Shown: piece by piece, positions 818 to 7,538 of the stretch
Layout of the letters: every line of letters begins with the position of its first letter
How positions within the stretch are numbered: the stretch's first letter is position 1
Origin: an uncultured Lacticaseibacillus sp.
Lineage (GTDB): Bacteria > Bacillota > Bacilli > Lactobacillales > Lactobacillaceae
Assembly: GCA_934293835.1 (NCBI GenBank)
Contig: CAKQZO010000061.1
Coordinates: forward strand, 1-8,925
Reading direction: 5' to 3'
Length of the DNA stretch: 8,925 bases
Program-made: the position numbers and the translations under genes
Notes under the pieces: generated by a model
Database searches by the model: none
Told to the model about the DNA's origin: nothing
What the model saw: the letters and a program-made list of their open reading frames with translations, nothing else

Positions 818-1768
818 ATGTTGGAGCAACCATACTTGGATTTGATGCGCCAGATCTTGGCGGAAGGTGACTTTAAGGGGGATCGAACCGGAACCGGGAC
901 GTATAGCCACTTTGGCGCTCAATTGCGCTTCGATTTGCAACAAGGCTTTCCCTTACTGACAACCAAGAAAGTGCCTTTCGGGTTGATCAAGAGTGAATTA
1001 CTGTGGTTTTTGCATGGGGATACCAATATTCGTTTCTTGTTGCAGCACAAGAATCACATCTGGGATGAATGGGCGTTTGCGCGGTTCGTCAAGAGTGCCG
1101 ATTATACAGGACCGGACATGACGGATTTTGGCCAGCGCCGCTTGAGCGATCCGGAATTTGCAAAGCAATATCAGGAACAGATGGCAATATTTGATCAGCG
1201 GATCTTAGACGATGCGGCCTTCGCTTCGGCCTACGGGACGCTTGGTAATGTCTATGGTCGACAGTGGCGCGCTTGGGAAACCAGTCGCGGGGACACGATC
1301 GACCAGCTCGGGGATGTGATCGAACAAATTCGTACGAATCCGAACTCGCGGCGGTTGATCGTCAGTGCCTGGAATCCAGAAGACGTGCCGACGATGGCGC
1401 TGCCGCCTTGCCACACGCTTTTCCAATTCTATGTCAACAATGGCAAGCTGTCCCTGCAGCTGTATCAGCGTTCAGCGGATATGTTCTTGGGGGTGCCGTT
1501 CAACATCGCCTCTTATGCACTGCTCACCCAGATGATCGCCCACGAAGTCGGATTGCAGGCCGGCGAGTTCATTCATACCTTCGGCGATGCGCATATTTAC
1601 ACCAACCACATCGAACAGGTCAAAACGCAACTCGCCCGGACGCCCAAGAAAGCGCCGACGTTGTGGTTGAATCCAGCCAAGCAGTCGGTGTTTGATTATG
1701 ACATGGCCGACATCAAAGTCGAAAATTATGACCCGGCGCCAGCGATTAAGGCCCCGGTCGCAGTCTAA
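818..1768 (+). CDS. thyA: Thymidylate synthase
   Basis: ThyA methylates dUMP to dTMP with 5,10-methylene-tetrahydrofolate, releasing dihydrofolate in the cytoplasm. The 316-residue product has the catalytic cysteine at 198 in [11 protein letters not shown], phosphate-binding Arg23 and Arg178/179, Arg218-Ser-Ala-Asp221 ([14 protein letters not shown]), Asn229, and His259/Tyr261 in DAHIYTNH. These positions coincide with the numbering of the L. casei enzyme as I remember it. Residues about 90-140 are the extra small-domain segment that makes the L. casei type about 50 residues longer than E. coli ThyA. The C-terminus APVAV, which closes over the active site, is intact. The ATG has an AGGAGG at 805-810, seven bases upstream. 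It probably shares a transcript with the ABC-F gene; dfrA, its usual partner, follows after a gap filled with palindromic repeats. Confidence 0.98.
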
Positions 1769-1775
1769 ATCCCGA

Positions 1776-1888
1776 GAGCGGCGTAAGGCCGTATTTAGAG
1801 CGTCGTCTAGTGCGTACAATTGCTGGAGCGAATTCATTCGCGCAGGTAATTGTGCCACTATACCTAGCTCGTTGGCCTTGCGCAACTC
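1776..1888 (+). repeat. Palindromic intergenic element A (first unit of array 1)
   Basis: This 113-bp imperfect palindrome begins seven bases after the thyA stop codon. The outer arms 1776-1790 and 1874-1888 are complementary at 12 of 15 positions. Nested inside are TAGTG/CACTA, ACAATT (1816-1821) with AATTGT, and a central GCGAAT/ATTCGC with a two-base loop. It aligns without gaps to element B exactly 126 bp downstream at about 69% identity (78 of 113, counted by hand). Its left end (GAGCGGCG) is more degenerate than those of B, C and D. I see no coding potential or promoter. The orientation follows the repeat consensus, with GAGC on the left. Confidence 0.75.
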
Positions 1889-1901: not shown

Positions 1902-2014
1902 GAGCGAAGCGCGGCCGTCTTTAGGGCGTAGCGTAACGCGTGCTATTGACGAAGTGGATTTATCCGCGCAATCGATAGTACCGTTAGGCCTAGCCCGTTG
2001 GCCTCGCGTAGCTC
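1902..2014 (+). repeat. Palindromic intergenic element B (second unit of array 1)
   Basis: This 113-bp unit is separated from element A by a 13-base A-rich linker (1889-1901). The arms 1902-1916 and 2000-2014 pair at 12 of 15 positions. The interior contains a small GTGGAT/ATCCGC hairpin. The ends are the family consensus, GAGCGAAG on the left and CGTAGCTC on the right. Bases 1886-1917 (end of A, linker, start of B) are identical to 6915-6946 in the second array. The element ends 34 bases before the dfrA ribosome binding site, so A and B together fill almost the whole thyA-dfrA gap. Confidence 0.78.
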
Positions 2015-2062
2015 GACGAACCCAGCGCAAACTCACACCGCTTAATGAGGAGGAAATTCCGC

Positions 2063-2551
2063 TTGATCGCATTTTTATGGGCGCAAGCCGCCAATGGTAT
2101 CATCGGCCGCGATGGGCGACTGCCTTGGCATCTGCCGGATGATCTCAAATATTTTAAGGCCCAGACGCTGGGTCAGCTGACCGTGATGGGGCGCAAGACC
2201 TATCTCGGCTTGCCGAAGCGGCCGCTACCCGGGCGCACGAATGTCGTCTTGACGCATGATGTGAACTTTGAGGCTGAAGGCACGGTGGTCGTGCATTCTC
2301 GCCAAGAGTTACTGGCACTTGCCGCCAAGCATCCCGAACAAGATGTGATTATTACTGGCGGCGCCGGTGTTTTTGCCAGCCTCGCAGACTTGCCAGACAC
2401 GCTGTTGGTGACGCGGCTTGCCGGTGAGTTCATTGGCGATGTCACGATGACGGCGATCGATTGGGCAGCTTTTCGGCGCGAAGAAGCGCGTGAAGTGATC
2501 AATGAAGACCCGGCGCTGACGCACACCTTCGAAGTGTGGCGCCGCCGATAA
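2063..2551 (+). CDS. dfrA: Dihydrofolate reductase (TTG start)
   Basis: DfrA reduces dihydrofolate to tetrahydrofolate with NADPH, recycling the product of ThyA; it is the target of trimethoprim and methotrexate. I choose TTG at 2063, giving 162 residues starting MIAFLWAQ. It lies nine bases after a clear AGGAGG (2048-2053), and it matches the N-terminus and length of the L. casei enzyme as I recall it. The ATG at 2045 is in frame, but the ribosome binding site sits inside its first codons and nothing suitable lies upstream of it. Visible motifs: the GIIGRDGRLPWHLPDDL loop with catalytic acid Asp27 (Met counted as 1), GRKTY (cofactor-binding region), PLPGRTNVVLT, the TGGAGVF glycine pair, and TRL...GD near the end. 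It is separated from thyA by palindromic repeats and followed by a strong terminator. Confidence 0.96.
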   Translation: MIAFLWAQAANGIIGRDGRLPWHLPDDLKYFKAQTLGQLTVMGRKTYLGLPKRPLPGRTNVVLTHDVNFEAEGTVVVHSRQELLALAAKHPEQDVIITGGAGVFASLADLPDTLLVTRLAGEFIGDVTMTAIDWAAFRREEAREVINEDPALTHTFEVWRRR

Positions 2552-6062: not shown

Positions 6063-6677
6063 ATGAAGCGAGCAGAGAAAAAAACGCCCAAGCAAACGAT
6101 CAATTGGTGGCGCTGGGTCGCGCTGGTTTTGATCGGACTGATCATCGGCACCGGTATCTGGTTTACGGTCAAGGTCATCACCCCGTATAACGATCCGGTC
6201 ACCCAGACGACAGAAACCGCTGCAGAGGTCGATCAACCGGCATTGTCGGTGCGCCTGACGAAGCGCCAGGTCAACCGGATCGTCGATTATTACCTCAACG
6301 ATTATCTCAAAGGCAGCAAGATCAAGTACACGATGACAATCGGTGACCAGGCAGTACTTGGCGGGAAGTTCAAGTTCTTCGGTGCCACGATCAAGTTCCA
6401 GCTGTTGTTTGATCCGCTGGTCAAGGCCAATGGGGATGTTGAACTTAAGGCGCGCAAGCTGAACATCGGTAGCCTCCCGGTGCCGATCAGCTATGTGCTG
6501 AATTACGTCGGGCACAGCTACAAGTTGCCGAAGTGGGTGAAACTCAATAGCTCAAAAGAAACGGTTGTGTTAAAATTGAGCAAATTCACTATGCAAAACG
6601 GCATGGCGCTTAAAGCCACTAAGATCGATTTGCCTAACGACGAGATCGATTTCTCGGTTTACCTGCCCGACAAATAA
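6063..6677 (+). CDS. ypmS: YpmS family membrane-anchored protein (DUF2140)
   Basis: The 204-residue product has a basic N-terminus (MKRAEKKTPK), one membrane helix (about 16-37, WWRWVALVLIGLIIGTGIWF), an acidic/Thr-rich spacer, and an extracellular domain of alternating beta-like segments (LTKRQVNRIVDYYLNDYL, then KFKFFGATIKFQLLFDP and LNIGSLPVPISYVLNYV). The pattern, size and position just after an SGNH hydrolase fit the uncharacterised YpmS family of Firmicutes. No catalytic residues are evident. The start is three bases after the preceding stop; the nearest purine-rich site, AAAGGAG (6041-6047), is about 15 bases away inside the upstream gene, so translation is probably coupled. A palindromic repeat begins four bases after its stop codon. 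Confidence 0.86.
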   Translation: MKRAEKKTPKQTINWWRWVALVLIGLIIGTGIWFTVKVITPYNDPVTQTTETAAEVDQPALSVRLTKRQVNRIVDYYLNDYLKGSKIKYTMTIGDQAVLGGKFKFFGATIKFQLLFDPLVKANGDVELKARKLNIGSLPVPISYVLNYVGHSYKLPKWVKLNSSKETVVLKLSKFTMQNGMALKATKIDLPNDEIDFSVYLPDK

Positions 6678-6681
6678 AGCA

Positions 6682-6791
6682 GAGCGAAGCTGAGCGGTTT
6701 TTGCTGGGAGTCTAAGGCAGGACACCGCAGTGATGCAAAGCATCGCGAAAGCGTCATGACTTAGATAGCCCAGCATTGCTCAGCGTAGCTC
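6682..6791 (+). repeat. Palindromic intergenic element C (first unit of array 2)
   Basis: This 110-bp palindrome starts four bases after the ypmS stop codon. The left arm 6682-6695 pairs with the right arm 6778-6791 at 12 of 14 positions; inner pairings are GCTGGG/CCCAGC (6703-6708, 6769-6774), TCTAAG/CTTAGA (6711-6716, 6760-6765), GATGC-AAA-GCATC (6732-6744) and CGC-GAAA-GCG (6744-6753); the last two cannot both form at the shared base. It has the family ends GAGCGAAG and CGTAGCTC, but its arm sequence differs from those of A, B and D. Confidence 0.8.
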
Positions 6792-6803
6792 GACGCAAAA
6801 CCA

Positions 6804-6917
6804 GAGCGAAGTGGCGCGCACTTTACGGGTCGGGTAGCCTAGCCAGCGTGCTTGGGGCGGACTTAGCCCCGAGTGCGCTGGCGTAGCTAGCTGTACCCGT
6901 ATTGCGCCACGTAGCTC
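6804..6917 (+). repeat. Palindromic intergenic element D (second unit of array 2)
   Basis: This 114-bp palindrome follows element C after the 12-base linker GACGCAAAACCA. The outer arms 6804-6817 and 6904-6917 pair at 12 of 14. Inside are ACGGGT/ACCCGT (6825-6830, 6895-6900), CCAGCG/CGCTGG (6843-6848, 6876-6881) and an 8-bp tip CTTGGGGC/GCCCCGAG (6851-6858, 6866-6873) with a seven-base loop. It is the best-formed hairpin of the family and has the consensus ends. Confidence 0.83.
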
Positions 6918-6930
6918 GACGAAAAAACCA

Positions 6931-6982
6931 GAGCGAAGCGCGGCCGCACTTAGGGCGTAGCGTAAGGTACTTTTGCACGGCC
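6931..6982 (+). repeat. Truncated palindromic element E (left part only)
   Basis: The left end GAGCGAAG and following bases repeat element B almost exactly: 6915-6946 is identical to 1886-1917, and after three differences 6950-6965 is identical to 1921-1936. No CGTAGCTC right end follows. A short GGCCG/CGGCC pairing (6942-6946, 6978-6982) is all that closes it. It looks like a deletion derivative. The msrA ribosome binding site begins 24 bases later. I see no convincing msrA promoter in this stretch. Confidence 0.65.
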
Positions 6983-7022: not shown

Positions 7023-7538
7023 ATGTCTGAAACTGCAATTTTTGCCGGTGGCTGCTTTTGGTGCATGGTGCAGCCATTCGAAGAACAGCCTGGAATCTTG
7101 AATGTGGTGTCAGGCTACACTGGCGGACATGTTGCCAACCCGACCTACGAGCAGGTCAAAAGCCACACGACCGGGCACACGGAAGCCGTCCAGATCACTT
7201 TTGATCCAGCGGTGATCAGCTATGCGCAGCTGCTGGAAGTATATTGGCAACAAACCGACCCGACGGATGCGATGGGCCAGTTCCAAGATCGCGGCGACAA
7301 TTATCGGCCGGTGATCTATGTGGCCAATGCTGCCCAGCGCCAAGCGGCAGAAGCTTCCAAGCAGGCCTTGGCAACAAGCGGCCGGTTCAAGGAACCGATC
7401 GTCACAACGATCGAAGCCGCCAAGCCGTTTTATCCGGCGGAGCCTGAACACCAAGAGTTCTACGCGCATAACCCGCGGCGCTACGCCCAAGAACACGCGC
7501 AGCGCCAGGCGTTCATTGACGCGAACTGGCAGGACTGA
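7023..7538 (+). CDS. msrA: Peptide methionine-(S)-S-oxide reductase
   Basis: MsrA repairs oxidised proteins by reducing the S-epimer of methionine sulfoxide in the cytoplasm, using thioredoxin. The 171-residue product opens with the family active site, AGGCFWC, with catalytic Cys11; Cys14 is the only other cysteine. Further family motifs are [26 protein letters not shown], a [21 protein letters not shown] block, and [13 protein letters not shown]. The ATG follows AAAGGAG (7006-7012) at ten bases. No msrB gene is in the window and no MsrB domain is fused. It heads an apparent operon with yozE (18-base gap) and ctpA. The upstream gap is filled by palindromic repeats. Confidence 0.97.

Follow-up and report, generated by a model that had tools for sequence, protein, structure and literature searches.

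The window (the whole 8,925-nt stretch analysed, from an uncultured Lacticaseibacillus sp.) holds four full-length members (A–D) and one 5′ remnant (E) of an abundant hairpin-repeat family of the Lactobacillaceae. Its units, ~115 nt long, occur singly or in tandem, mostly directly behind genes or terminator-like T-tracts. The family is likely non-autonomous, and its hairpin would, we predict, be transcribed and function as RNA at the 3′ ends of mRNAs; taken whole, this reading falls somewhat short of an even chance in our judgement. Its members share one layout, change on both sides of their stem pairs, fold with a strong bias towards one strand and lie at preferred places beside genes. Their ends are specific to the array in which they stand, and copy number and interiors change at fixed sites.

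B, C and D lie where an earlier reading made from the DNA letters alone (the sequence-only reading) had placed them, share the ends GAGCGAAG...CGTAGCTC and each form one long stem that beats 200 of 200 shuffles in a fold test (Table 1). The arms differ among the elements and every arm pairs with its own partner, as that reading had described. Element A, which it had called degenerate, is better regarded as diverged: its ends differ (GAGCGGCG...CGCAACTC), yet it folds at z = -6.15 with the layout of B. Element E, described there as a truncated copy, holds only the 5′ part of an element, its fold is at chance level (z = +0.95, with 162 of 200 shuffles at least as good), and 5′ remnants of this kind are found behind many arrays. 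Rfam (release 15) gave two sub-threshold rows in the window and no match at gathering score at the elements; the row overlapping D (MIR8788) reaches 28.8 bits, where the gathering score is 124, and we take it for chance. An inverted repeat of the ordinary terminator-like type, with 18-nt arms, lies behind dfrA (2554–2598 of the window) and is unlike the element arrays.

Table 1. Elements A–E and their neighbouring genes in the window. R1 is the narrower of the two covariance models described in the text.
Feature	Position	Strand	Description	Basis
Element A	1776..1888	+	Diverged full-length copy, 7 nt 3′ of thyA stop codon	Fold z -6.15; R1 match at 1775-1894, 50.1 bits
Element B	1902..2014	+	Full-length, tandem with A	Fold z -4.96; R1 77.5 bits
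Element C	6682..6791	+	Full-length, 4 nt 3′ of DUF2140 gene stop codon	Fold z -6.14; R1 94.7 bits
Element D	6804..6917	+	Full-length, tandem with C	Fold z -9.39; R1 104.3 bits
Element E	6931..6982	+	5′ remnant after last full copy (D)	91% identity over 56 nt to start of B and its linker; no fold
thyA, thymidylate synthase	818..1768	+	Upstream of array A-B	PF00303, E 8.9e-118
dfrA, dihydrofolate reductase	2045..2551	+	Downstream of array A-B; start codon uncertain	PF00186, E 3.9e-45
DUF2140 gene	6063..6677	+	Upstream of array C-D-E	PF09911, E 8.6e-61
msrA-like peptide methionine sulfoxide reductase gene	7023..7538	+	Downstream of array C-D-E	PF01625, E 7.4e-62

The sequence-only reading had proposed building a covariance model and searching it against relatives; doing so recovered many further copies in genomes of the genus and the family. 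The end motifs alone, used as a pattern, picked out 17 stretches in a collection of 84,980 species, all titled Lacticaseibacillus (kribbianus, parakribbianus, daqingensis and manihotivorans) or belonging to one metagenome-assembled genome (MAG) titled Lactobacillus sp. Model R1 was built from a seed alignment (A2) of 28 copies, retained from 40 pattern rows after duplicate, overlapping and oddly bounded rows were removed by eye; a broader model, R2, was built from 68 copies. Copy numbers are lower bounds, drawn from up to 150 scored candidates per genome, or nine in the searches of ~400 genomes. For five of the end-motif loci the source genomes were searched with R1, which gave at least 150, 90, 149, 146 and 53 matches in them; it matched 27 of 30 Lacticaseibacillus genomes, with none in G008, G017 and G023. 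R2 matched 128 of 397 Lactobacillaceae genomes, including G008 and G017 and 103 outside those 30. Within the genus there were at least 150, 139 and 140 matches in G021, G010 and G019, respectively. In twelve genomes outside the genus it found at least 1 to 148 each, at loci with the same plan in different letters. Across the phylum, one of 398 genomes was positive, namely the query genome itself. Fifteen records of a plasmid collection carry an element of the G021 type, in Lacticaseibacillus and Pediococcus hosts; L. paracasei and L. rhamnosus plasmids carry elements. The window array itself had no match in that collection, nor did an array from L. kribbianus (locus L014) in a phage collection. 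The impression that this is not a named repeat family holds: Rfam gave no match at the elements of 4 and 11 further loci, and none of the openly available papers listed in literature searches, judged by title and abstract opening, describes the ~113-nt hairpin family.

A unit measures ~113–115 nt and folds as a one-stem hairpin of ~40 or more pairs. It opens with an outer helix of 4 bp (GAGC/GCTC, GGGC/GCCC, GCGC/GCGC, GCGT/ACGC or GGGT/ACCC), followed by a G/A-rich 3×3 internal loop (GAA/GTA, GGA/GGA and others), and an arm of 7–8 bp. Beyond an asymmetric loop come another arm and then a long inner stem that carries a small loop. The linkers behind the hairpin read CGACGAAA, CGACGA or CGTTTA and contain no T-tract. 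For covariation we used alignment A9, which takes from each genome no more than its 12 best-folding representatives and adds several copies from G021; 4 of 72 were dropped as doubtful. Only 3 of 137 columns are invariant among the remaining 68 diverse, well-folding copies. Standard pairs fill 91.6% of the cells in 34 stem pairs, against 32–45% when the pairing is slid, in what is a favourable sample, its selection for good folding being to the advantage of the former figure. All five covariation measures exceeded each of 500 shuffles and every slid version. The covariation that the sequence-only reading anticipated is thus present, with two-sided changes in 33 of the 34 pairs exceeding shuffle and slide controls that ignore kinship. 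Neither of the two outcomes which that reading had named as refuting it, a lack of further copies or of covariation, came about. Among near-identical copies, 49 pairs had changed on both sides to another Watson–Crick pair. One-sided changes from Watson–Crick led to G·U in 127 cases, to A·C in 56 and to other mispairs in 99, so that 155 of them break pairing; the G·U:A·C ratio was 2.3:1 (P = 1.6e-7). Young copies are weakly constrained, as expected if many are passengers and only some lines last.

A plain DNA palindrome has no preferred strand, and opposed G·T and A·C should then be about equally frequent. Isolated G·T:A·C oppositions numbered 383:30 in 258 elements taken with no fold filter (what remained of 304 matches once lengths had been filtered and identical copies taken out), and 250 of the 258 fold better on the strand read. 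Among 123 representatives below 80% identity, a set that excludes copies folding better on the other strand, isolated G·T:A·C was 146:10, where base composition alone would give ~1.5:1; over all positions in this set, G·A:C·T was 418:40 and G·G:C·C 112:8. The 28 seed elements, selected by their end motifs, gave 46:0. The bias extends beyond the genus (G·T:A·C 42:5; 40 of 41 copies from twelve genomes fold better on the strand read). Because G·T and A·C are so unequal, unlike in a plain DNA palindrome, one strand is selected as a fold. Counting near-identical copies separately, the ratio was 168:17 behind stop codons, 78:5 behind T-tracts and 165:8 elsewhere, and 38:1 where the array runs antisense to both neighbouring genes (15 arrays with 26 elements). 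Since the bias is alike across placements and in antisense arrays, it seems to belong to the element itself and not to its host gene. The natural reading is that the selected strand acts as RNA rather than as single-stranded DNA; DNA hairpins also tolerate G·T. Two-sided changes against controls and the strand-specific wobble bias together give good support to the earlier suggestion of selection on fold rather than on sequence. Selection on one strand is more probable than the companion suggestion, that the structure is replicated through.

To describe placement, we delimited 142 arrays in six genomes and the window, calling genes with a simple codon-scored open-reading-frame finder. A total of 46 arrays start 1–10 nt after a stop codon that ends an open frame of 80 codons or more; this class was assigned first. 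A further 41 lie behind a T-tract at most 22 nt away, and 55 fall in neither class. The other array ends gave only 4 (stop) and 9 (T-tract) of 142, and random positions 111 and 70 of 2,840, respectively. Stretches from G003 and G007 had been chosen around strong hits; in G001, G002, G004 and G021, represented by runs of 20-kb pieces partly chosen for hits, 52 of 85 arrays belong to the stop or T-tract class. Outside the genus, arrays lie behind a stop codon at 11 of 24 loci and behind a T-tract at 1 of 24. Between co-directional genes, 50 arrays are sense and 15 antisense (P = 1.6e-5); convergent genes flank another 20 arrays and divergent genes 10. At L. kribbianus L014:4542-5441 a four-copy array starts 49 nt downstream of the gene for RNase P RNA (RF00011), which shows that genes for non-coding RNAs, too, can have an array behind them. 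By eye, CGTTTA-type arrays at L103:6437, L100:10800, L094:12444 and L093:2141 are antisense and directly adjoin an apparent ribosome-binding site of the neighbouring gene. At L002:2652-2882 a 39-bp tandem repeat of 5.9 copies lies between an element array and the neighbouring genes, and the same locus holds, twice and in opposite orientation, a segment made of a tRNA-like gene (by eye), a terminator and an element.

The 142 arrays comprise 58 singles, 38 pairs, 28 triples and 18 arrays of 4–7 copies. Partial copies are found mainly at one end. After the last full copy, 46 arrays have a match to the 5′ part of the element, 8 to the middle and 4 to the 3′ part, and 40 of the 46 5′ matches end by element position 60. 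Before the first copy only 3 of 142 arrays have a match (two to the 5′ part, one to the middle, none to the 3′ part); by eye, some arrays are preceded by short scars that keep both ends without the hairpin. Ends and linkers are more alike within than between arrays in G003 (0.899 versus 0.801) and G007 (0.895 versus 0.823), whereas interiors are no more alike within than between (0.723 versus 0.726 and 0.669 versus 0.685). In these two genomes, arrays therefore have their own ends and freely mixed interiors. Interiors are locally alike in G001 (0.797 versus 0.703) and G004 (0.764 versus 0.703), which is what tandem duplication would give; in G002 the difference is small and comes from only 9 pairs.

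Copy number changes at fixed sites. At sites common to G003 and G007 it is, for example, 7 versus 1, 4 versus 2 and 1 versus 6. G003, a MAG, has a three-copy array directly behind the thyA stop codon, in the gap before dfrA; in G007, which has the ThyA nearest to it among those found (85%), only ~20 nt and no array separate thyA from dfrA. No target-site duplication was evident by eye in this comparison, in which the flanks have diverged. One PTS site is occupied differently among L. paracasei plasmids: pWX3 has two copies plus a remnant there, L1 p1 has a single copy, and others have nothing but the remnant (seen in the three records examined out of six of this kind). A second PTS site carries two different interiors in equal flanks, with a neighbouring gene 99.3% identical; of 43 pairs, 33 are identical, 6 differ on both sides yet remain paired, 2 differ on one side and remain paired, 1 is broken and 1 is a gap. 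One of these interiors also occurs in Pediococcus inopinatus. Two L. plantarum plasmids keep only the 3′ end of the element at this site, so these apparently empty plasmids (2 of 4 records) are deletion derivatives rather than true empty sites. At a third plasmid site, the 5′ arm and loop have been lost from one member of a plasmid pair that is otherwise the same. For 7 arrays of G001 the flanks could be located in G004: an array stands between them in two cases, the stretch examined holds no element in four, and one case, with a gap of 2.2 kb, was left out. Empty sites could not be defined to the letter in this comparison, the intergenic DNA being too diverged, and at letter level we saw no new insertion at a site proven empty before.

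We also looked for machinery that could move the copies. A Y1 transposase (PF01797) matches in 13 of the 30 genus genomes and a reverse transcriptase in 11, with full-length reverse transcriptase domains in G005, G012 and G022. The copy-rich genomes G001, G002 and G004 gave no match to either, and both were rejected as the driver; Y1 was without a match in G005 as well. In G021, where a DnaA gene starts at base 1 of contig C1, 47 of the 106 copies listed and 41 of 89 arrays lie on the leading strand. This is no preference, and lagging-strand transposition of single-stranded DNA was set aside as well. No gene was found riding with the element.

In the reading we favour, the hairpin would usually be transcribed together with the upstream gene. 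Its rod-like form may block 3′ exonucleases or be cut by RNase III, and such a block or cut could set mRNA decay or operon polarity. Copies would multiply and exchange interiors by host recombination or by slippage at the repeated ends, needing no transposase of their own, and survival would favour gene 3′ ends as places and, among the copies, those able to fold. We provisionally ascribe the spread to host recombination or slippage because neither Y1 nor reverse transcriptase was found in G001, G002 or G004, nor a replichore bias in G021. The sequence-only reading had left a non-autonomous element and a structured RNA as two choices. The two need not be alternatives: turnover of the copies resembles that of mobile repeats, and what is conserved in them is a one-strand fold. 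An unlikely but serious competitor is movement of the element as single-stranded DNA, with one strand's hairpin serving as the substrate of a recombinase (as in IS200/IS605-REP and integron attC) and the gene-end positions being merely tolerated insertions. It accommodates a one-strand bias that is independent of gene orientation and placement class, the changes in copy number and the copies on Lacticaseibacillus and Pediococcus plasmids; the missing Y1 matches in four genomes, the even replichores of G021 and the lack of an accompanying gene speak against it. A non-mobile host element that acts in cis in the 3′ untranslated region, stabilizing or processing the mRNA of the preceding gene and spreading only with that gene, would suit the 46 arrays close behind stop codons, the sense bias and the arrays at the same sites in G003 and G007. 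We consider it unlikely. Relatives differ in presence and absence at one site, interiors in G003 and G007 are no more alike within arrays than between them, and the antisense and post-T-tract arrays are equally biased. That equality (38:1 and 78:5) means that the fold is not tied to the upstream mRNA; these arrays argue against a role limited to it, and a bias held regardless of neighbours favours the element's own life cycle over a host 3′-UTR role. The 55 of 142 arrays outside both placement classes, the weak constraint on young copies and the G021 copies' lack of preference for the leading strand also weigh against the reading we favour. A bolder version, to which we give rather low probability, is a mobile RNA element, Lactobacillaceae-wide, that would home to transcript 3′ ends. 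The folded sense RNA would itself set the site, behind stop codons or terminator T-tracts and 5′ end first, and each array would stamp its own ends on interiors from a genome-wide pool, with no transposase or reverse transcriptase of its own.

The remaining explanations fare worse. GC-rich hairpins at gene ends recall intrinsic terminators or attenuators that would end or weaken transcription of the preceding gene, but the hairpin is followed by CGACGAAA or CGTTTA and not by a T-tract, 41 of 142 arrays come after a T-tract instead, and by eye several arrays are then followed by a separate terminator-like sequence; we hold this role very unlikely. Upkeep of a DNA palindrome by hairpin-templated correction, with no strand selected, would explain the long arms with correlated changes and the deletion scars typical of hairpins. 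Such correction would yield Watson–Crick pairs and no strand preference, and the unequal G·T:A·C, G·A:C·T and G·G:C·C counts of the 123 representatives, along with the conserved unpaired loops, make it barely credible. These are GC-rich genomes, in which a single model row apiece would be slight proof; chance hairpins are nevertheless refuted by the phylum search with its single positive genome, and z values down to -9.39 and the shuffle and slide controls likewise leave them next to no probability.

The nearest known kinds are ERIC, BOX and REP-type repeats, and the elements belong to none of them on the features tested. In the sections of the sources drawn on here, ERIC (also IRU or RU-1 of enterobacteria) is an intergenic, multi-copy repeat of ~127 bp forming one long stem-loop, with a 7-bp terminal inverted repeat, TA termini and a target-site duplication (PMC2229807, PMC2267715). 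It is known from enterobacteria, Vibrio and Yersinia (PMC2267715), and in Yersinia it is co-transcribed and affects mRNA stability in an orientation-dependent manner (PMC2229807). Set beside these descriptions, our elements are similar in length, in their one long stem-loop and in being intergenic and multi-copy. They differ in lacking TA termini, their ends being GAGC, GGGC, GCGC, GCGT or GGGT, with 4 paired positions and then the 3×3 loop, and, as far as those sections go, in their tandem arrays and extensive paired sequence change. ERIC is, on this partial account, the best analogy for a possible function. BOX of Streptococcus pneumoniae, as the same kind of excerpt describes it, is a composite of boxA, boxB and boxC with variable tandem modules, predicted RNA stem-loops and strain-variable copy number, features that our elements resemble (PMC3049150). 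Each unit here is instead a complete hairpin with its own two ends, in arrays with array-specific ends. The pneumococcal authors regard BOX, RUP and SPRITE as parasitic elements (PMC3049150), and by analogy with that part of their account a parasitic reading may hold for the lactobacillus elements too.

REP sequences of the GTAG and CGTC classes are, in the text consulted, palindromic units of 20–40 bp with stems of 5–13 bp (8–9 bp for CGTC) that often lie downstream of coding regions, as ours do; CGTC-REPs have no dedicated transposase, and the main text does not name lactobacilli (PMC3733652). The right end of our elements is CGACG, which is CGTC on the other strand. Compared with REPs as so described, however, the units here are far longer (~113 nt, stem of ~40 or more pairs), and the GTAG class is set apart by the lack of a Y1 tyrosine transposase match in G001, G002, G004 and G005. 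Integron attC sites have conserved ends and variable self-complementary interiors, with one strand recognized as a fold; the elements here have no gene cassettes, and linkers of a few nucleotides leave no room for them. The repeat efar of Enterococcus faecalis may be comparable. As for a structured RNA, covariation on one strand above controls, which ignore kinship, is what we find.

If this reading is true, a structured family absent from Rfam accompanies many genes in lactic acid bacteria, also on plasmids of L. paracasei and L. rhamnosus, species used in food and as probiotics. Evolution of an intergenic repeat over its full length by paired changes on one strand would here be seen with unusual clarity, and the old question of parasite or RNA device, asked of such repeats, would become testable. 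The array rule of common ends, exchanged interiors and a 5′ remnant at the tail calls for a mechanism, and we know of no described transposon whose mechanism gives this combination. Two weak model matches in L. daqingensis (L108:9952-10061 and L125:14313-14414) apparently represent another repeat with a GAACGCAGTGAGTTACGAGCAGACAT motif, part of which also lies inside an element of L004.
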